This document shows, piece by piece, positions 16,056-25,820 of a stretch of DNA of 64,000 nt. A program made the translations under genes and the position numbers. The stretch covers positions 6,789-70,788 of the IMG/VR virus record IMGVR_UViG_3300030117_004164, one strand, 5' to 3'. The notes beneath the pieces were generated by a model. The model saw only the letters and a list, made by a program, of their open reading frames with translations. It made no database searches and had not been told where the DNA came from. Source of the DNA: a virus. Numbering within the stretch: position 1 is the first letter of the stretch; every line of letters begins with the position of its first letter.

Positions 16056-16119
16056 AGCAGAGTACCATGCGGCCCCGCGTTAAAGGTACTGCTTAAAACA
16101 AACAAAAAGGTGAATGAAA
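16056..16119 (+). promoter_or_regulatory. Hairpin and promoter of the Ubl gene
   Basis: GCAGAGTACC and GGTACTGC form a stem around a smaller GCGG/CGC hairpin (about 16057-16093), which could end the upstream transcript. Next comes TGCTTAAAACAAACAAAAAGGTGAA, nearly identical to the promoter of the 9777 gene, ending in the AGGTGA ribosome binding site. Confidence 0.45.
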
Positions 16120-16320
16120 ATGAAATTGAGAATTTTGAACGAAACAGGACATACTGAACTAGAAGTTAGCACAAGCGAGGTAATCGACCAAATCAACGAC
16201 CACCCTACACATTGGGTATTTGTTGACGGAGAGATGGTGAGCCGAGAACAGATTAATGCTGTAAATTGGGACACTGTTGAAACAGTCGATTTAACACCCG
16301 CTATTGTTGGTGGACAGTAA
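16120..16320 (+). CDS. Ubiquitin-like / ThiS-MoaD-like beta-grasp protein ending GGQ
   Basis: 66 residues from ATG 16120; an ATG two codons upstream overlaps the ribosome binding site. The order is strand-turn-strand (MKLRILNETGHTELEVS), helix (residues 18-30), strand WVFVDGEMVSREQ, which resembles the vNGExVpr segment of ThiS/MoaD/SAMP proteins, and a last strand VETVDLTPAIVGGQ. Gly64-Gly65 is followed by a single Gln66, so one residue would have to be removed to expose the diglycine. The E1-like gene at 22035 and JAMM protease gene at 23279 supply the expected activating and processing enzymes. The gene has its own promoter and terminator. Confidence 0.7.
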   Translation: MKLRILNETGHTELEVSTSEVIDQINDHPTHWVFVDGEMVSREQINAVNWDTVETVDLTPAIVGGQ

Positions 16321-16333
16321 ACAGAATAAAGAT

Positions 16334-16375
16334 GGGGGTTCCTCCTTTATTGGGGGAACCTCCTACTTTTTTTTT
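16334..16375 (+). terminator. Strong terminator after the Ubl gene
   Basis: Nine-pair stem GGGGGTTCC/GGAACCTCC (16334-16342 and 16355-16363, one G-U pair) followed by nine T residues (16367-16375). The ribosome binding site of the next gene begins at once after it. Confidence 0.7.
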
Positions 16376-16385
16376 GGAGGAAAAT

Positions 16386-16784
16386 ATGTCAGACAATTTT
16401 TTAAATAATAACGCATTAGGAATGATATTATCGTCATTGGGTTGGGAATACTCAGGTGACTTAATTGATTATGTTAAAGAAGTTGACACGTATAAAGGTG
16501 AAATACCAACAAGAGCGGATTTTTACCCTGAAGGTGTGAGGTTAGCATCATCAAAAAAAGCGATAATAATTTGTGATGGGAAAACTACTATTCAATATAA
16601 GGACACTATTTATTATACCCCTTGGATGATTTTTAAATGTCATGGTCAAGAGGCTTTAGATGATATTGATAATTGGGTCTTTAGAGAAGAAAAACAATGG
16701 TTAATAAAGAAGATAAACGGGGAATGGGTAAGACCATTCACTTTATTGACCGAATGCCCGTTTAGAACAACAGTGAGGTGTTAA
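16386..16784 (+). CDS. Hypothetical protein before nrdJ
   Basis: 132 residues from ATG 16386 (TTGGAGGAAAAT upstream); the longer open frame runs back through the terminator and is not used. Alternating strands (AIIICDGKTTIQYKDTIYYTPW) in the middle. One base separates its stop from the reductase start region, so they are probably co-expressed. Family not recognised. Confidence 0.6.
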   Translation: MSDNFLNNNALGMILSSLGWEYSGDLIDYVKEVDTYKGEIPTRADFYPEGVRLASSKKAIIICDGKTTIQYKDTIYYTPWMIFKCHGQEALDDIDNWVFREEKQWLIKKINGEWVRPFTLLTECPFRTTVRC

Positions 16785-16785
16785 T

Positions 16786-18978
16786 ATGAAACTACCACAT
16801 GAAAAAGAATGGATACAAAACTTATTGAAACAAAGATACTATGGAAAGGATGAAAACACATGGCCGCAAGTATGCCAAAGAGTTGCAGATTTAGGAGAGA
16901 CTCCTGAAGATAAAGCGGCTTTCTTTAATTACTTGTTGAATTGTGATTTCTTACCAAATAGTCCAACATTGTTTAATGCAGGAACAGGCAAAGGTAATCT
17001 TTCTGCTTGTTATGTATTGCCAATGAAAGATAGTCTAAACCAAATTTTTGATACTGCTAAGAATACGGCACTAATTCATAAATTTGGTGGAGGAACAGGA
17101 TTTGATTTTAGTAGACTACGGCCTGAAAATGCCGCAGTTGGTGGAACAAATCAAGTAGCATCAGGACCACTTTCATTTATGAGAGTTATTGATGCAAACA
17201 CACAAGAAATCAAACAGGGTGGAAAACGTCGTGGGGCTAATATGGCTGAACTGAGAATTGACCATCCTGATATTGTAAAGTTTATCAAGATGAAAACTGC
17301 TGATGATGGAACATTAACTAACTTTAACATTAGTGTTAGTGTAACAGATGGATTTATGGAAAGGCTTCAAAAATTCCCTGATGATATTTGTACATTTCAT
17401 TGGGGAGAATGGGATGATAACGGAATGTTAGTTCCATACGATTTCTTTATTAATAAAGAAACTGATGAGCCTTCTTGTGCAGAACTAGGATTAGGTGATT
17501 GGACTCTTGAAAATGAAGCATATTATTCTAATAAGGAAATTTGGGATTTGATTGCTCAATCAGCATGGGAATGTGCAGACCCTGGAATTATCTTTATTGA
17601 TAGAATTAATGAACAAATGCCAGCGAACTATTTAGCACATGAAGAATACCTGAAAGAAACAGGGGATGATTTGACTATACGCGCAACTAATCCCTGTGGT
17701 GAACAACCACTTCCTGATTATGGTTCATGTAATCTTGTTGCCCTAAATCTAGGTAACTTCGTATCTAAGGGTAAAATGGATTGGAATAGGCTTCAAGAAG
17801 CAGTTAAGTATGCTTATCGTTTAGGCGAAGCAGTAATTGATAAGAATGTTTATCCTATTCCTGAAATCGAAAAGCATAGTCGAGCATATAGAAACATCGG
17901 TATTGGTGTTATGGGATATGCAGATGCCTGTATTCTAATGGGTATGCGTTATGGTGAAGAAGATGCTTTAGCCTTTGGTGAAGAAGTAATGAAGTTTATT
18001 TACAAATGGACATTTGTTGAATCAGTAGAATATGCTGAAAAGAAAGGTGCATTCAAAGGTTGGGAATATGGTGACTATAAACCATTAATTGATGGTAGAC
18101 AATTACCACCTGAAACTCGCAAGAAGTATAAGGTAACAGGTCTTAGAAACATTTGTTTAACCACTATTGCCCCAACAGGTTCTATTGGGTATATTGCAGA
18201 TTGTTCCACAGGAATTGAGCCGTATTTTGCGGCGCGTGTGTTTAGAATAGACCAATCAAACCCTGAAGGCACTTGGATTACTACCCCATTGGCGGCACAA
18301 TATCCTGAAGTATTCGTATCAGCACCAGAATTGGCTATTGATGCCCATATTGGTGTTCAAGCGGCATTTCAAAAGTGGGTTGATTCAGGAATCAGTAAGA
18401 CAATTAACATGGATAATGATGTTACCGTTGAAGATGTTAAAAGAGCGTATATGCTTGCTTGGGAGAATAATTGTAAAGGTGTGACTATTTATCGTGATGG
18501 GTCAAAGTCAGTTCAAGTATTGAATACTAGCGAAAGTAAAACTAAACCTAAAGATTTAGATGATATTAGTGAAGCCGTTAGATTCCGATTACCGGCTGAA
18601 GGTCTTGAGGATGAATACATTTACATTACTGTATCACATTATGAGAATACACCTATTGAAATGTTCGTGAACTATCCGTATTTGAACCGACCTACGATTG
18701 AACACACTCAAAGGCGTGAACAGTTGGATAGTATTTCTCGACTTATTTCAGTGGGTCTAAGGTATCATATCCCACTTGATAAGTTGATTGAACAATTAGA
18801 GAAGTCAAAGGGTTCTATGCGTGGAACCGTTGCACAGATTTCAAACGTTCTAAAAGAATTTGCATCAAGAAGTGATGACCCCTATACTGAAACTTGTCAT
18901 ACTTGTGAAGATGGCAATATGGTATTTCAAGGTGGTTGTGCCACCTGCGATAAATGTGGACATTCTGAGTGTGGATAA
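16786..18978 (+). CDS. nrdJ: Class II (B12-dependent) ribonucleotide reductase
   Basis: 730 residues. Converts ribonucleotides to deoxyribonucleotides using adenosylcobalamin. Seen: LPNSPTLFNAGTGKGNLSACYV near residue 60, the FGGGTGFDFSRLRP loop, the active-site NPCGEQPLPDYGSCNL (Cys304), and the PTGSIGYIADCSTGIEP region. The C-terminus is a zinc ribbon (CHTCEDG ... CATCDKC) typical of class II enzymes and ends in a redox-type cysteine tail. No ATP-cone is visible at the N-terminus. No NrdB-like radical subunit gene is nearby, as expected for class II. It needs host B12. Confidence 0.95.
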   Translation: MKLPHEKEWIQNLLKQRYYGKDENTWPQVCQRVADLGETPEDKAAFFNYLLNCDFLPNSPTLFNAGTGKGNLSACYVLPMKDSLNQIFDTAKNTALIHKFGGGTGFDFSRLRPENAAVGGTNQVASGPLSFMRVIDANTQEIKQGGKRRGANMAELRIDHPDIVKFIKMKTADDGTLTNFNISVSVTDGFMERLQKFPDDICTFHWGEWDDNGMLVPYDFFINKETDEPSCAELGLGDWTLENEAYYSNKEIWDLIAQSAWECADPGIIFIDRINEQMPANYLAHEEYLKETGDDLTIRATNPCGEQPLPDYGSCNLVALNLGNFVSKGKMDWNRLQEAVKYAYRLGEAVIDKNVYPIPEIEKHSRAYRNIGIGVMGYADACILMGMRYGEEDALAFGEEVMKFIYKWTFVESVEYAEKKGAFKGWEYGDYKPLIDGRQLPPETRKKYKVTGLRNICLTTIAPTGSIGYIADCSTGIEPYFAARVFRIDQSNPEGTWITTPLAAQYPEVFVSAPELAIDAHIGVQAAFQKWVDSGISKTINMDNDVTVEDVKRAYMLAWENNCKGVTIYRDGSKSVQVLNTSESKTKPKDLDDISEAVRFRLPAEGLEDEYIYITVSHYENTPIEMFVNYPYLNRPTIEHTQRREQLDSISRLISVGLRYHIPLDKLIEQLEKSKGSMRGTVAQISNVLKEFASRSDDPYTETCHTCEDGNMVFQGGCATCDKCGHSECG

Positions 18979-18980
18979 TC

Positions 18981-19268
18981 ATGTGGTGGAAGAATAGATT
19001 CAAAGATTGGGATATGTTTGAGGCTATAATTTGGGATATGGTAAGCCAAGGAATGTTTACTGAAGGGGAGTTTGTATTAGAAGTTTTAGAAAACGCGACA
19101 AACTTTACCACCATTACTAGTGACCGTATAGATTTTACACTAACTAGAATACTTGATGGGTTTAAGTTCCCATCTAATAAATTTGCATATACCTATTTTT
19201 TGGCTATTGCGTCTAAAATAGAGGATAAGATAGATTACTACAACAAGAATCCGGAGGAAGAAGAATGA
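18981..19268 (+). CDS. Hypothetical protein after nrdJ
   Basis: 95 residues from ATG 18981; a GTG twelve bases earlier overlaps nrdJ. Begins MWWKNRFKDWDMFEAII, acidic helical, ends in PEEEE, encoded by the ribosome binding site of the next gene. No family recognised. Confidence 0.55.
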   Translation: MWWKNRFKDWDMFEAIIWDMVSQGMFTEGEFVLEVLENATNFTTITSDRIDFTLTRILDGFKFPSNKFAYTYFLAIASKIEDKIDYYNKNPEEEE

Positions 19269-19549
19269 TAACTGATGAGAGATATTTTAATTTAAATGAG
19301 ATGAAAAAGAGTGAACTAATTACAGCGTGGAAAGACTATGTTTTTCCAAATAGAAAGAGAGGTGGCATAATTAAAATGAATGGGTTTTCAAAAGAATCCA
19401 TTGGTAGCGATATGTCACAACACCGTCCCAAAATTGGGGATGATGAATATACTTGGGGAGAAATAGAATCATATCCTGAAGATATGGTTCGTATCCTTTT
19501 TTACCAACAATTGAGTGCGGTAAACGTAGTCAAGGGTGAAGAAGAATGA
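19265..19549 (+). CDS. Hypothetical protein
   Basis: 94 residues, ATGA overlaps at both ends. Contains WKDYVFPNRKRGG and EYTWGEIESYPEDM; no known motif. Ends GEEE through the downstream ribosome binding site. Confidence 0.55.
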   Translation: MITDERYFNLNEMKKSELITAWKDYVFPNRKRGGIIKMNGFSKESIGSDMSQHRPKIGDDEYTWGEIESYPEDMVRILFYQQLSAVNVVKGEEE

Positions 19550-19713
19550 GTAAAGACCCTGAATATGTTAAAAGCCCAAAATCATATATGAAAAGGGTAG
19601 CCACTAGATGTAGAATTTGTGGCAAACAATTACTCGACCCTGCCGAGTCTAAGCAGGAATATCACAATAAGTGTATAAAAAAATATAAAACAAAAACGAG
19701 AGGATTTAGATGA
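19546..19713 (+). CDS. 55-residue zinc-finger-like protein
   Basis: MSKDPEYVKSPKSYMKR... with RCRICGKQLLDP, and HNKC about 18 residues later, a plausible Cys3-His zinc site. Basic throughout. ATGA overlaps at both ends. Confidence 0.55.
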   Translation: MSKDPEYVKSPKSYMKRVATRCRICGKQLLDPAESKQEYHNKCIKKYKTKTRGFR

Positions 19714-20921
19714 ATGACAGAGAAATAATACACATATATTCACCTGACGATTCAGGTAAATATCATAATGTACAAATTAGCACACAAGGAGATAATATGA
19801 CATATACTAATTCTAGATACAGTTGGGTGAATTATACTAGAAGTAATGCTATTTATCCATCACGACATAGAAACGCTACTGAACCAACAATTGCTGCGAT
19901 TAAATCATGGTTGCAGGGTTATTTGGGTTGGGGTGCAAAGAATAGACCATACTTTGACGGTTGGTTTATTATTCATAAAGGAATGGAACAGGCTAAAATT
20001 TATTGTTCTAAGTTGAATACTACATATTCTGTTCAAGGTATGTCAACTAGTAAAGATACGGCATTAACCGCATTATCTAGAACACTATATCGTGCGTGTT
20101 TTACTGACGATACTGATGAATTAGTCAATTACTGCTTTAAGCATATTCTATTGCCAGAAAATGTTTCGTATGCTTTAGAAAATCGTGCGCCTTATCATTG
20201 GTATAAGAAGGGTGTAAAAGTTGATGTTAGGTTTAATGTAAAAATGATTGGACCCGATGAATGTGCTATGGAAATTTCAGATGGGGTTTGGGCAGCAATT
20301 TCAGCAAAGAGCCTTAATACTTACATGAATTATTATTGGAAGAATCAAAAGAGTTCTTCTTGGGCAAAATCTAGATTGACTCCTAAGAAATTATGGACTC
20401 GTCTACTTAAAACTGAACCAACGGAAGGCCAAGTAAAAATGATGATTGCTTTCTTGGAACAAAATAGAACAGATGATTTAGTTCAGAAAAGAGCATATCA
20501 ATTAGTTAAGGATATGGAGGCTCAATATGAGGGCCGTCTTAGAGTATTTTGGGATAATGATAAAGTTGCGGCTATGTTGGTTCGAGGTAAAATTGCAGAT
20601 TGGGTGATTACTGATAATCAATACAAAACTGATATTCAGGCAGTATCTACCTTTGTGTTTAAAAAGATTAACGGACCAGTTAACTTTTTTGACGGAGAAT
20701 TGGCAGGTCCAATTTGTATTGATAATATGACTAAGAACTCATCTGTTGGTGACCAATTTGCTGCGAGGGCATTTGCTTTACTTAATGATAACTTAACTGT
20801 AAATCTTGTCAGCACGATTAAACATTATTTGAATGATGAGCATTATGAAAATCAGATTGAGGCAAGAATCATGTTTGATGATGTAACACTAAAAGATTTA
20901 ACAGAGGTGCTAGGTAAATGA
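19710..20921 (+). CDS. Large hypothetical early protein
   Basis: 403 residues, rich in Trp, Tyr and Asn, no nucleotide-binding or metal motif that I recognise. The middle has a basic stretch (SSSWAKSRLTPKKLW), and the C-terminal third alternates strands and helices. It sits between nrdJ and tfb in a coupled operon. Function unknown. Confidence 0.65.
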   Translation: MNDREIIHIYSPDDSGKYHNVQISTQGDNMTYTNSRYSWVNYTRSNAIYPSRHRNATEPTIAAIKSWLQGYLGWGAKNRPYFDGWFIIHKGMEQAKIYCSKLNTTYSVQGMSTSKDTALTALSRTLYRACFTDDTDELVNYCFKHILLPENVSYALENRAPYHWYKKGVKVDVRFNVKMIGPDECAMEISDGVWAAISAKSLNTYMNYYWKNQKSSSWAKSRLTPKKLWTRLLKTEPTEGQVKMMIAFLEQNRTDDLVQKRAYQLVKDMEAQYEGRLRVFWDNDKVAAMLVRGKIADWVITDNQYKTDIQAVSTFVFKKINGPVNFFDGELAGPICIDNMTKNSSVGDQFAARAFALLNDNLTVNLVSTIKHYLNDEHYENQIEARIMFDDVTLKDLTEVLGK

Positions 20922-21094
20922 AATTACCAACAGGATTAGACCCTAACAAAGTTAGAAAGATAATCAAAGCCATAGTTATCTGTGAAGATGAAGAAACTTG
21001 GCTAGAGACAGAAAAAGATATTAGAGAACTATTATCTATGTTGTCTAATGTGAAAAGGCAAGCAACAATTATTGAAATGGAGGATGTAGAATGA
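20918..21094 (+). CDS. 58-residue hypothetical protein
   Basis: MKLPTGLDPNKVRKIIKAI..., a charged helix protein overlapping the previous stop and the tfb start by ATGA. No family recognised. Confidence 0.5.
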   Translation: MKLPTGLDPNKVRKIIKAIVICEDEETWLETEKDIRELLSMLSNVKRQATIIEMEDVE

Positions 21095-22059
21095 AAGAAG
21101 ATATAATTAAATGTTCTGAATGTAATTCGAGAGAATTAAGTGTAGATGCTAATTCAGGTGAAACTTATTGTGAAGAATGTGGATTAGTATTAGAAGAAAA
21201 TATATTTGAAGAAACAAGTGCGGGAAGAGAAAAAGATAGTGACCCTCAAAGTGATAGAACACATAATCCTAATAGAGTAGGATTTACTTTAGGAAGTATG
21301 GTTGGAACCACTAATGTAGATGGCAGTAAAGATAGGTCACAAACGGGTAGAACATTACGAAGATTGAATCAACGTGTGTCTATGAAAAGTCATGAAAAAA
21401 ATAGAAGCAAAGGGTTTGCATTAGTAACTATGTTAGTGAGTGAATTTGTTTCTTCTCCGGCATTTAGGGAACAAGCGGTATGGAATTACAAAAGAATACA
21501 TGATAATCAAGTGTTAAAGGGTATGTCTTTAGAGACTAGAGCCGCCGCAGTAGTCTATTATACTTTTAAGGAAAATGGTATCTCTAGGACTATTGAGGAA
21601 ATTTGTAGAAAAAATATGTCTCACCCTAGACAAGTAGCAAAATGTGCTAGAAGAATAGCAACTTTCTTTAGGAAACCTTGGATTCTTTCCCAAAAAAATA
21701 TTGACCAAGATGTTGAAAAGTATTGTTCACAGTTAGGGGTGAATAGGTTATTTACTACATCAGCAATTAAACTAACATCTTTAATGCACAATATTGCTGA
21801 ACAAAGATATATGAATGTAAACTCTGGTTTTACTGCTGCCTGTATTTATTTGACAGGAATTTTACTAACCCCAACTGTTGCCCCTAGAACTCAAATGGAA
21901 ATTTCTAACGCGTTAAATATTACTGAAGTTACGCTTAGAACAAATCTAAGAAAGGCACTAAAGATGGTTGATAGAAGAAAAGAAAATTTACCTAATATGA
22001 GTTATGATGAATTTATGGAAGGAGTGTATAGAATATGTCCAAAGGAAGAAGAAGAGTGA
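21091..22059 (+). CDS. tfb: Archaeal transcription factor B (TFIIB-like)
   Basis: 322 residues. The N-terminal zinc ribbon has Cys8, Cys11, Cys27 and Cys30 (CSEC...CEEC). A B-finger/linker region follows to about residue 100, then two cyclin-like repeats: GMSLETRAAAVVYYTFKENG in the first and SGFTAACIYLTGILL in the second, with a final recognition-helix-like NALNITEVTLRTNLRKALK. It bridges TBP-bound promoter DNA and archaeal RNA polymerase, so the virus can favour its own promoters. No viral TBP is seen in this window. Confidence 0.93.
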   Translation: MKEDIIKCSECNSRELSVDANSGETYCEECGLVLEENIFEETSAGREKDSDPQSDRTHNPNRVGFTLGSMVGTTNVDGSKDRSQTGRTLRRLNQRVSMKSHEKNRSKGFALVTMLVSEFVSSPAFREQAVWNYKRIHDNQVLKGMSLETRAAAVVYYTFKENGISRTIEEICRKNMSHPRQVAKCARRIATFFRKPWILSQKNIDQDVEKYCSQLGVNRLFTTSAIKLTSLMHNIAEQRYMNVNSGFTAACIYLTGILLTPTVAPRTQMEISNALNITEVTLRTNLRKALKMVDRRKENLPNMSYDEFMEGVYRICPKEEEE

Positions 22060-22604
22060 TGATAATTGGTGCAGGTGGAATTGGTAGTTATTTGATTCCG
22101 CTACTTGATAAAACGATGGTCTATGATATGACAGTTATGGACCCTGATAATGTTGAAAAGAAAAATTTGACTTATCAAAATTTCAAGGAAAAAGAGAACG
22201 GAATGAACAAAGCGTCAGTAATGAATTGGAACTATGATAGTGTCAAGCATTTTAGTCCCTATCCAGTTTTGACTGAAAAGCAAATCAAGAGTTTTGATTT
22301 AGTAATTTGTTGTGCAGATAATTTAGATGTGCGAAGATTGCTTTATCGTTCAAATATACCTTGGTTAGATTTGAGGGCGCAAGGTAGAAATTGTGCATAT
22401 ATTTCATATCGTGCTGATAAGAACAAACATGATACTTTATTGGCAGGGCCAGATGGTTCATTTAGTTGTCAAGGTAATTCATGGGATGGTTCAACAGAAG
22501 GACAACATTTTTCTCATATAATTGCCGCAGGTATGGGTGCTGAATGGATTCACCGATATTTTGCAAAAGATGATGTAGCAGATTTTAAGGTTGTGAATGT
22601 ATGA
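22035..22604 (+). CDS. E1-like adenylyltransferase (ThiF family)
   Basis: 189 residues. Rossmann ATP site VMIIGAGGIGSYLIPLL (residues 8-24), then MDPDNVEKKNLTYQ (the DxDxVxxxNLxRQ motif, with Tyr in place of the usual Arg), GMNKASV for the adenylating lysine, and CCADNLDVRRLL. Near the C-terminus FSCQGNS followed by a QHFSHIIAAGMGAEWIHRYF helix resembles the SC...Q...LWRLF end of plasmid and phage ThiF enzymes, where the Cys would carry the thioester. It should activate a C-terminal diglycine; the protein at 16120 is the obvious partner. It overlaps tfb by 25 bases. Confidence 0.8.
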   Translation: MSKGRRRVMIIGAGGIGSYLIPLLDKTMVYDMTVMDPDNVEKKNLTYQNFKEKENGMNKASVMNWNYDSVKHFSPYPVLTEKQIKSFDLVICCADNLDVRRLLYRSNIPWLDLRAQGRNCAYISYRADKNKHDTLLAGPDGSFSCQGNSWDGSTEGQHFSHIIAAGMGAEWIHRYFAKDDVADFKVVNV

Positions 22605-22738
22605 GTATGATGGATGAAACAAATGTTCTATTAGAGAAGTTAAATGTTTTGATAGAAAAAACAAATAGAATTATTATTACAGTCAATGTGGTAAACATTA
22701 TTACATTGTGTGTATTGTTAATGGTGGTATTGAGATGA
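22601..22738 (+). CDS. 45-residue single-pass membrane protein
   Basis: An N-terminal charged helix (MDETNVLLEKLNVLIEK) then a hydrophobic segment (IIITVNVVNIITLCVLLMVV) and a terminal Arg. ATGA overlaps at both ends. Resembles small phage membrane or tail-like peptides; function unknown. Confidence 0.5.
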   Translation: MSMMDETNVLLEKLNVLIEKTNRIIITVNVVNIITLCVLLMVVLR

Positions 22739-22857
22739 ACGAGTATCAAATAAACCCATGTTATGTGTGTGGTGAACATATGCTGTATTTATGGACAATG
22801 ATGCCCGTTTGTGTAAATAAGAAATGTGAAAAATATAAGATTGAGGTGAAAAGATGA
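22735..22857 (+). CDS. 40-residue zinc-ribbon protein
   Basis: CYVCGEH and CVNKKC give two cysteine pairs in a 40-residue protein, a minimal zinc ribbon. Coupled to both neighbours by ATGA overlaps. Lies between the E1-like and JAMM genes. Confidence 0.5.
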   Translation: MNEYQINPCYVCGEHMLYLWTMMPVCVNKKCEKYKIEVKR

Positions 22858-23081
22858 CACTTAAAGGATTAGGAAGAATAACTAAGTTAGTTAAATATGA
22901 ATGTGAAAAGTGTAATAAGATTTGGAGTTTGACTCCTGAATTTATTATAGTAGGAAATGGCCCAATATTTTGTGGCTTTGATAGTAGAGGTAGAAAACTA
23001 TGGAGACAAGAAGGACACTGTTCTTGTGGGGTTCCATTCAACTACCCAAAGAAAACAATTGATGAAGTACGAGGTGATTAA
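22854..23081 (+). CDS. 75-residue zinc-ribbon protein
   Basis: YECEKCNKIW near residue 16 and CSCG near residue 57, a four-cysteine zinc ribbon with a long inserted loop. N-terminus basic. Function unknown. Confidence 0.55.
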   Translation: MTLKGLGRITKLVKYECEKCNKIWSLTPEFIIVGNGPIFCGFDSRGRKLWRQEGHCSCGVPFNYPKKTIDEVRGD

Positions 23082-23282
23082 ATGAAAGAAGTTTTTATAG
23101 CAAAAAATGGTCGTCCTTATGTTAAGGATGAATCTGGAAAGGTGCGCTTTATTAGTAGCGCAGAATGGCAAGAATACCAAAACAACAAAGAGGCATCAAA
23201 CTATGGTAAGTATTTATTTTATACCATTATGGCTGTTTTGTTTACTGTATTGGTAACAAATAGGGTAGGTGAATATTTATGA
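23082..23282 (+). CDS. 66-residue tail-anchored membrane protein
   Basis: The N-terminal 40 residues are polar (FIAKNGRPYVKDESGKVRF), then one hydrophobic helix (YLFYTIMAVLFTVLVT) close to the C-terminus. No signal peptide. Its start abuts the preceding stop codon and its stop overlaps the JAMM gene. Confidence 0.55.
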   Translation: MKEVFIAKNGRPYVKDESGKVRFISSAEWQEYQNNKEASNYGKYLFYTIMAVLFTVLVTNRVGEYL

Positions 23283-23737
23283 TTTCAAGTGATAGTATTG
23301 TAGTAATGTTAGCAGATTGGGAAGAGCAGATTAAAAATGCTTGGGCTGATGGTAACTTTAATTATACAGATGAGAATTTCTTAGATGTTATTTGGGAAAT
23401 GAGTTTAACTGCATTTGATATGGGTAGAGAAGTCCAAGTAGTTATTGATGGAAAAATGAATATTTATATTTCTGCGGGAGACCCAGGATTTGTTTGGTTT
23501 AAGGAACCTCCTGTTGGAATGTCTTTACCTATTGAATGTTGGATTCATACTCATCCATTTGGTCAAGCGTATTTTTCAGGAACAGATTGGAACACAATTA
23601 ATACATGGGAACCTGTAATGAATCACGCTATCGTTCTTGGTGATAATGAATCAATGGAATGGATTAAAGGTTTAGAACATACTATGTTTTATAAGAAAGT
23701 AGATATTCCAAATTGGGTGCGAGGTGAAGAAGAATGA
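23279..23737 (+). CDS. JAMM/MPN+ metalloprotease
   Basis: 152 residues. His90-Thr-His92-Pro, seven residues, then Ser100-Gly-Thr-Asp103 matches the zinc-binding HxHx7SxxD motif of JAMM peptidases exactly. A Glu near residue 41 or 53 would complete the site. JAMM enzymes cut after the diglycine of ubiquitin-like proteins. The substrate here is probably the Ubl at 16120, which has one residue after GG. The operon also holds the E1-like gene, separated by four small genes. Confidence 0.82.
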   Translation: MISSDSIVVMLADWEEQIKNAWADGNFNYTDENFLDVIWEMSLTAFDMGREVQVVIDGKMNIYISAGDPGFVWFKEPPVGMSLPIECWIHTHPFGQAYFSGTDWNTINTWEPVMNHAIVLGDNESMEWIKGLEHTMFYKKVDIPNWVRGEEE

Positions 23738-23877: not shown

Positions 23878-24040
23878 TTTAGTGAAAGAAGTAGCAAATA
23901 GAGTGAGTGATGAGGATTCTGTAATTCTCTGGGACATTCTAAAAAAGACACGTACTGAAGATTGGTGGAATTTACATGAAGATACACTTTATCAATTGTG
24001 TCTTAAAATGTTAGAAGATATGGAGCGTGAGCAAGAATGA
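23867..24040 (+). CDS. 57-residue hypothetical protein
   Basis: Starts MNIDLVKEVANRVSDED at ATG 23867; the frame is open further upstream but overlaps the zinc-ribbon gene entirely. Acidic, helical, with WWNLHEDTLYQLCL. Overlaps groS by ATGA. Confidence 0.5.
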   Translation: MNIDLVKEVANRVSDEDSVILWDILKKTRTEDWWNLHEDTLYQLCLKMLEDMEREQE

Positions 24041-24273
24041 GAGCGTATGGACATTGGGTAATCTTAAAACACTTTGAAGAAAAGACAGTATCAGGAATCA
24101 TTAGTAACGAAGGTGCGGCTATGGAAGTTGTATCAATTGGTGAACAATGTCCTGAAGAATTTAAAACTTTGATTGGTAAAAAAACTTACTACAAACCTAG
24201 TAGGTCGGCACTACCTATGAATGGATATATTTGTATTCATTGGCAAGATGTAACATATTCGGAGGAATTATGA
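24037..24273 (+). CDS. groS: GroES-like co-chaperonin
   Basis: 78 residues. MRAYGHWVILKHFEEK parallels the GroES start (IRPLHDRVIVK), then SGIIS for the mobile loop, AMEVVSIGEQ for the GEVxAVG strand, and a C-terminal strand pair GYICIHWQDV. Shorter than bacterial GroES (about 97). Direct overlap with the GroEL-like gene makes the pairing convincing. It would cap the viral chaperonin ring. Confidence 0.75.
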   Translation: MRAYGHWVILKHFEEKTVSGIISNEGAAMEVVSIGEQCPEEFKTLIGKKTYYKPSRSALPMNGYICIHWQDVTYSEEL

Positions 24274-25820
24274 TGGCAGAAATTTTATTTGATGAAGATG
24301 CAAGAAACAAACTTATGGAAGGAATTAATTTAGTGGCAAATACAATTAGATGTACTTTAGGTCCACAGGCAAGAACCGTAGTAATTAAGCAAAATGGTAA
24401 ACCTGTTGTAATTAACGATGGTGTAACAATTGCTAAGGCTATCAAATCTGATGATGAATTTGTACAAATGGGTGTAGAATTAATGCAAGCAGTTGCTTCA
24501 CAAGCCCAAGAAAATAGCGGTGATGGTACAACAACTGCTACAATTATGGCACAACAATTATGTTACTATGGTTTAAATGCTGTACAATCTGGAGAAAATC
24601 CTGTTACACTAAAGAAACAATTAGATGCTGATGTTAGAACGGTATTGACTAGGCTAGATAAAATGTCTACTCAAATTCAAGACCGCGAACAATTAGAAAG
24701 CGTTGCTACTATCGCCGCAAACAATGATTCTAAACTAGGAGAATTAATTGCTGATATTGTAGATAAGGTTGGACGAGATGGTATTATTTCAATTGAAGAT
24801 GGTCAAAGTTTAGATACTACTTTTGATATTATTGAGGGTATGGAATTAGACTCAGGGTATATGAGTCATCTTATGATTAATAATGAAGAAGGAACGCACT
24901 GTGAATTTGAAGATTGTTTGGTTCTTATGTCTAATGAGAAAATCAATAACTTTCAGGAATTACTTCCTGCTCTTGAAATCTCAATGGCAGAAAAGAAACC
25001 ACTATTGATTATGTGTAAAGAACTTGAAGGGACAGCATTCCCAAATTTATTGGCGAATGTGGCAAACAAGATTATCAATGCTTGTGCTATTAAGACTCCT
25101 GATTTTGGAGATGAGCAAATTGAAATTCTGAAGGATATTCAATCAATGATTGGAGGTACTGTATTCAATGCTGACCTTGGAGATAAGATTTCTGAGGTTA
25201 AGTTGGAAGATTTAGGAGTAGTTACCAAAATTAAAATTGGTCGAAGTAATAGCACATTGATTCACGATGCAACTATTGAACAAAGCGAAAAAATTACTGC
25301 TCGCGCTAAAGAATTATCTAACCAAATGGAAGCACAAACTAATGAGTGGTTTAAAGAAAAATTACATAAGCGAATAGGTAGACTTTTGGGTGGAGTAGCA
25401 TTAATTAAAGTTGGTGGTTCAACTGAGATTGAAATTCGTGAAACCACAGAAAGATTAGATGATGCCTTAAATGCAACAAGAGCGGCACTTCAAGAAGGAA
25501 TTGTTGTTGGTGGTGGATTGGCACTTTGGAATTGTGTTGATGGTGAAATGCTTAGTATGCTAAGGTCGGCTTTGAAATCACCACTTCAACAATTGGCTGA
25601 AAATTCTGGACACGATTTAAATTATGCGAGTTTGTCAATTCGTGATGGCTATGACGCCAAAGAAAATTGTTACACAGATATGTGGGAAGCAGGAATTTTA
25701 GACCCCGTTAAAATCACAAAAAGTGCATTGGTTACTGCGGCTTCAATTGCTGGATTAGTTTTGACAACTGAAGTTTTAGTTGGTTCTGATGATGAAGAAG
25801 AGGTGCAATTTTATGGCTGA
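24273..25820 (+). CDS. groL: Group I chaperonin (GroEL-like)
   Basis: 515 residues from ATG 24273 (GGAGG seven bases upstream). Group I features, not thermosome: DARNKLMEGINLVANTIRCTLGP, SGDGTTTATIMAQQL, IEGMELDSGYMSHLMIN, KPLLIMCKELEG, IKTPDFGDEQIE, GGVALIKVGGSTEIEI, DALNATRAALQEGIVVGGG, and ILDPVKITKSALVTAASIAGLVLTTE. The GGM-repeat tail is missing; it ends in an acidic DDEEE. Likely helps fold capsid or tail proteins. Archaea usually use group II thermosomes, so this is notable. Confidence 0.95.
   Translation: MAEILFDEDARNKLMEGINLVANTIRCTLGPQARTVVIKQNGKPVVINDGVTIAKAIKSDDEFVQMGVELMQAVASQAQENSGDGTTTATIMAQQLCYYGLNAVQSGENPVTLKKQLDADVRTVLTRLDKMSTQIQDREQLESVATIAANNDSKLGELIADIVDKVGRDGIISIEDGQSLDTTFDIIEGMELDSGYMSHLMINNEEGTHCEFEDCLVLMSNEKINNFQELLPALEISMAEKKPLLIMCKELEGTAFPNLLANVANKIINACAIKTPDFGDEQIEILKDIQSMIGGTVFNADLGDKISEVKLEDLGVVTKIKIGRSNSTLIHDATIEQSEKITARAKELSNQMEAQTNEWFKEKLHKRIGRLLGGVALIKVGGSTEIEIRETTERLDDALNATRAALQEGIVVGGGLALWNCVDGEMLSMLRSALKSPLQQLAENSGHDLNYASLSIRDGYDAKENCYTDMWEAGILDPVKITKSALVTAASIAGLVLTTEVLVGSDDEEEVQFYG

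Follow-up and report, generated by a model that had tools for sequence, protein, structure and literature searches.

Bacterial cassettes that encode a ubiquitin-like protein (Ubl) together with E1, E2 and JAB proteins have been described by Iyer et al. (PMC1779556), as has the TAPI/TAPK pair of phage lambda; in Borg elements, predicted deSAMPylases occur along with a SAMP (PMC12660748). For predicted archaeal viruses, the sections of Coutinho 2021 (PMC8276007) on which we draw place a MoeB/ThiF gene among the most prevalent auxiliary genes and mention ubiquitination; that gene is probably the same E1 gene as the one studied here. The usual viral strategy is to exploit or to block the ubiquitin system of the host. 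Here, we describe a lineage that has a predicted modifier, activating enzyme and protease of its own as core genes. A first-pass annotation of the DNA had proposed, from the sequence of a single virus, that these three parts let the virus make its own protein modifier. The comparison with relatives makes this earlier observation much stronger, and among the candidate readings a modifier made by the virus and presumably conjugated to proteins is the best supported. We put at about 0.7 the probability that the early/replication gene block of magrovirus-like viruses contains the genes of a dedicated and reversible system for ubiquitin-like modification.

The window, i.e., the whole stretch of 64,000 nucleotides that was analysed, is part of a virus contig of 71,215 bp, which is the full record. 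A transcription factor B (TFB) and an ATP-dependent DNA ligase exceed their Pfam cutoffs in the window, and RFC, PCNA, a split family-B polymerase, GroES/GroEL and ribonucleotide reductase were read from the open reading frames (ORFs) of the plus strand. The structural genes, including that of the tail tube, are on the minus strand, far from the four-gene set described below. Such a layout has been given for the Aoguangviridae and other magroviruses, which are viruses of Poseidoniales archaea (PMC10768690). The gene content and the two opposed modules of the window match this description, with the genes other than those for TFB and the ligase being read from ORFs only. By gene content and layout, the window is provisionally assigned to a marine, magrovirus-like archaeal tailed virus, the order named being Magrovirales; the virus group carrying the set is widespread in the ocean, with archaea as probable hosts. 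The positions of the relevant features are collected in Table 1. The TFB gene sits between the candidate E2 gene and the E1 gene in most loci of the first pass; it is a context neighbour, for which we make no claim as a part of the system. Two ORFs located between the E1 and JAMM genes (22854-23282), one zinc-ribbon-like (75 aa) and one encoding a one-helix membrane protein (66 aa), are restricted to close relatives (15 and 10 loci, respectively). The GroES and GroEL genes come after the set (24037-25820) and, unlike the four core genes, were detected in only 27 and 45 of the first 81 loci. Many proteins of the window end in EEE, such as the products of the ORFs ending at 19268, 22059 and 23737, probably because the following gene has a GGAGG-type ribosome-binding site that shares nucleotides with the stop codon.

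Table 1. Features of the modifier locus, in positions of the window.
Feature	Position	Strand	Basis or detail
Ubl, predicted ubiquitin-like beta-grasp protein, 66 aa, ends AIVGGQ	16120..16320	+	ORF, AlphaFold2, Foldseek, relatives
Terminator-like hairpin GGTTCC...GGAACC with nine T, right after the Ubl gene	16333..16375	+	Sequence
Fourth core protein, candidate E2-like, 403 aa	19710..20921	+	Cys336 in GPICIDN, codon 20715-20717
Viral TFB (TFIIB-like)	21091..22059	+	PF08271 and PF00382 over cutoff
ThiF/E1-like adenylating enzyme, 189 aa, Cys145 in SFSCQ	22035..22604	+	PF00899, family profile
JAMM/MPN+ metalloprotease, 152 aa, Glu51, His90-x-His92, Ser100, Asp103	23279..23737	+	Motif, relatives

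The small Ubl ending in VGGQ that the first-pass annotation had reported was confirmed as an ORF; an alternative in-frame ATG at 16114 would yield a protein of 68 residues, and the alignment of the relatives begins at 16120. The AlphaFold2 model, built with 53 sequences (pLDDT 84), has the order strand-strand-helix-strand-strand-helix-strand. The 50 PDB matches listed by Foldseek are nearly all ubiquitin, NEDD8, SUMO and other Ubls, the top ones being mostly ubiquitin and NEDD8 (probability up to 1.00, best E-value 4e-3, TM-score about 0.4-0.54). Model and matches thus predict a beta-grasp fold, in a check of the product that had been set beforehand. The di-glycine motif is present in all of the 105 distinct relatives. 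A residue after the GG, as noted earlier for the window, is usual, tails of 1-2 residues being found in 89 of the 105, but it is not universal, since 15 Ubls stop at the bare GG; the trailing residues have no fixed identity. A single Ubl (L204) has a long tail, with seven residues past the GG (GGSCISDDD). The Ubls are acidic (median net charge of -9) and nearly devoid of lysine (0-2 Lys). Their mean pairwise identity, 64%, is the highest among the four families (57, 43 and 34% for the other three) and their dN/dS is 0.15, a strong conservation that is expected of a modifier. The Ubl gene had also been credited with its own promoter and terminator, a proposal that held in part. A TATA-like box is located at -60 to -20 in 20 of 61 relatives (shuffles, 2.1; other genes, 0-4), but for the gene in the window itself the sole candidate is weaker, a TTTAAGTA some 74 nt upstream. 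Likewise, the hairpin with its T-run is present in the window, but T-runs follow the Ubl gene in only 4 of 62 loci, and the terminator-like hairpin is therefore not a conserved feature.

The two enzymes of the initial proposal were also borne out. The E1-like protein has the motifs GAGGIGS, DPDNVEKKNL and FSCQ, scores 56.8 bits against the ThiF family PF00899 (cutoff 28.1), and its family profile retrieved MccB, UBA5, Uba4, MoeB and Cap2 from the PDB with E-values of about 1e-9 to 1e-8. Ten residues are invariant (Gly12, Gly14, Gly15, Gly17, Asp36, Asp38, Asn44, Lys59, Asp95 and Cys145), with Lys59 and Asp95 as the catalytic lysine and aspartate of the superfamily; judging from its position in the sequence, Cys145, kept in 142/142 relatives, is the single conserved candidate catalytic cysteine. 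In MoeB and ThiF, the ATP-contacting arginines are furnished by the arginine of the NLxRQ motif and by the N-terminal helix. The viral enzyme lacks the NLxRQ arginine, having a tyrosine at this position in 137 of 141 sequences, and begins at the first strand, i.e., without the N-terminal arginine helix, so that adenylation is not certain. In the JAMM protein, the HTHx7SGTD spacing is exact, as had been claimed, and the catalytic Glu51 is found within REVQV; these E, H, H, S and D residues are intact in 151/151 relatives. The window's JAMM scores 18.3 bits against Pfam Prok-JAB, below the cutoff of 25, and 43 of 45 relatives match this family. The JAMM profile matched AMSH and an archaeal Rpn11 homologue in the PDB; its armadillo-repeat match was dismissed as the sum of many sub-significant repeats. 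The Ubls ending at the bare GG (14 distinct sequences, 24 loci) are accompanied by an intact JAMM. Trimming therefore cannot be the only job of this protease, which fits deconjugation.

The first-pass annotation had recognised no E2-like gene, which was probably wrong: we lean towards the fourth core protein being an E2 and treat it as a candidate. When its AlphaFold2 model (pLDDT 90) was compared with the PDB by Foldseek, E2s (Rad6, UbcH5, Ubc13 and others) made up about half of the best 50 rows, and the rows with a probability of at least 0.2 were E2s, with probabilities up to 0.57 and E-values of 0.07-0.5; none of these best 50 rows had an E-value below 0.05. Two giant-virus E2s were found far down the viral Foldseek list. 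Cys336 is the sole invariant cysteine (136/136), is preceded by a strand and followed by a helix, and lies in a motif resembling the GxICLD signature of E2s (GxICxD). The topology of the model and the position of Cys336 fit the UBC fold, with the catalytic cysteine between strand 4 and helix 2, the E2 fold matches themselves being weak. Using hhalign with four yeast E2s, Cys336 aligned in the register of the catalytic cysteine, weakly above 100 of 100 column shuffles. Bacterial E2s also aligned in the cysteine register, although not above chance, and the margin over the shuffles was gone once they were added to the yeast E2s. Searches of Pfam, PADLOC and NCBIfam with the 403-aa protein gave nothing beyond chance, a PDB profile search with the family or with its C-terminal part found no E2, the UQ_con profile matched none of 30 records at E≤10, and the alignment of the family contains no HPN motif.

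Seed searches with the Ubl, the E1, the JAMM and their alignments gathered 228 loci, and linkage was counted on the IMG/VR contigs with enough flank to hold the region. On these contigs, all 110 E1 loci and all 134 JAMM loci have the Ubl, and all 158 Ubl loci have both E1 and JAMM. Hence, wherever the contig of a related virus was long enough to include the region, E1 or JAMM was accompanied by a GG-ending Ubl, the co-occurrence that had been put forward as a check. The 163 loci holding all four genes share the same order and strand, with the 403-aa gene between those of the Ubl and the E1; they correspond to about 80 E1 clusters at ~90% identity, as some loci share a contig and relatives are not independent. 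When contigs were sampled via the DNA polymerase gene, E1, JAMM and the 403-aa gene were found in 16 of 17, the exception stopping before the region, and the Ubl in 14 of 17, the three others ending at the region or no more than a few kb from it. Conservation of the GG (105/105), of the JAMM residues (151/151) and of the E1 Cys145 (142/142) rules out chance. Taken together, these data demonstrate that the Ubl, E1, JAMM and fourth genes are fixed core genes of these viruses. Among INPHARED phages, there was no Ubl relative, and for the E1 only distant crAss-type ThiF matches were found; crAss-like phages carry ThiF/E1-like genes labelled 'thiamine biosynthesis protein' or 'E1 enzyme family protein'. 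The genome scan for cellular relatives returned only two viral contigs (L083 and L084) binned in the GTDB MAG Altibacter sp. EAC109, which is likely a case of mis-binning.

The present analysis establishes the genes, their predicted folds, their intact active-site residues, their linkage and their conservation. From these we infer the chemistry of the viral Ubl system (adenylation, thioester steps and conjugation), its targets and its purpose. JAMM would trim the few residues past the GG where these are present; the ThiF-like E1 would adenylate the exposed GG and capture the Ubl on Cys145; the 403-aa protein would receive it as a thioester on Cys336, in an E2-like step; the Ubl would then be joined to lysines or other groups on target proteins, from which JAMM would take it off again. 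Likely targets would be viral replication proteins or host proteins, the latter perhaps destined for the archaeal proteasome. We give roughly even odds to the broader statement that all magrovirus-like viruses of marine archaea possess a complete and self-contained viral Ubl cascade (Ubl, E1, JAMM deconjugase and a new family of E2s), with which they retag host or viral proteins in lytic infection. A lineage with such core genes would clearly exemplify a virus that operates a modifier of its own; it would add an ocean archaeal virus group to the map of ubiquitin evolution, provide a candidate new E2 family and supply small proteins suited to work in vitro.

By sequence, the Ubl is nearest to ThiS, the leading Pfam family by member count (10 of 53 members, best E-value 8e-4), where it ties with another family that is a probable chance match; the Ubl does not reach the Pfam cutoff of ThiS (PF02597), and a ThiS search of whole records gave no match at E≤10. 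We regard PinA and the other weak Pfam matches of the Ubl as fortuitous. The E1 is nearest to ThiF/MoeB by NCBIfam. Both affinities would suit a sulfur carrier, in which the E1 adenylates a ThiS-like protein, a host sulfur source converts its C-terminus to a thiocarboxylate and JAMM trims the precursor (siderophore-type or CysO-type), the sulfur serving tRNA thiolation or another thio-compound. A JAMM, a ThiS-like protein and an E1 are indeed known from predicted sulfur-assimilation operons (PMC1779556), and the host could provide sulfur donors and acceptors. However, rhodanese, ATP_bind_3 (tRNA-thiolation type), PAPS reductase and PALP (cysteine synthase type) were all absent from 30-31 related virus records, in searches that were positive in 13-14 of 14 control genomes. 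Furthermore, JAMM is retained where the Ubl already stops at the bare GG, and a sulfur carrier leaves the equally fixed 403-aa protein with its E2-like cysteine unexplained; we consider this role unlikely.

The many predicted JAMM deSAMPylases of Borg elements (PMC12660748), and the use of Ubl conjugation by bacteria against phages, would be in line with counter-defence, the viral set intercepting a host modifier pathway with JAMM as a deSAMPylase and the Ubl and E1 as decoys, no conjugates being formed by the virus itself. A decoy, however, has no need of an invariant E1 cysteine, of an invariant di-glycine with a variable tail or of strict linkage between the parts, which makes this function quite improbable. 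A part in virion assembly akin to the lambda TAPI/TAPK pair, for which Ubls with JAB proteins in phage tail clusters provide a precedent (PMC1779556), is highly improbable and was rejected because of gene position, the four genes being on the plus strand with those for ribonucleotide reductase, TFB, GroES/EL, ligase, clamp loader and polymerase, far off from the minus-strand tail tube and other structural genes; furthermore, the description of the lambda pair includes no E1.

The reversible viral modifier system that we favour can thus be set beside the known ones. The E1 gene alone has already been reported; the Ubl, the JAMM, the fourth gene, their strict linkage and an analysis of active sites were not found in the sections of Coutinho 2021 (PMC8276007) used here. 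Of the four-gene set we found no report: in the literature examined, there was no account of the complete set for magroviruses, and priority is not certain. The sulfur carriers ThiS/ThiF and MoaD/MoeB share the fold and the E1 superfamily with the viral set, which differs by its JAMM and in that no sulfur-transfer partner was detected among the viral genes. Proteins I and K of lambda-type tail assembly are likewise a phage-encoded Ubl and JAB protease, but they are products of tail genes, whereas the set described here is in the replication block, with an E1. In the bacterial cassettes (the Iyer 2006 neighbourhoods, PRTRC, Bil/Bub and CBASS Cap2-Cap3), E1, JAB and E2-type proteins are co-encoded, mostly with a Ubl; the virus has a similar combination, with a candidate in place of the E2. 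The cassettes belong to cells or plasmids, and several serve in defence, whereas the viral set is part of a virus core genome and its E2 candidate is recognised by no E2 profile. The archaeal SAMP/UbaA/JAMM system of Haloferax shares with the viral set a beta-grasp GG modifier, a ThiF-type E1, a JAMM deconjugase and an archaeal setting. In contrast to this system, the viral E1 is a shortened form that lacks the NLxRQ arginine, and the viral set is virus-encoded, with the three genes in one fixed block together with a candidate E2.
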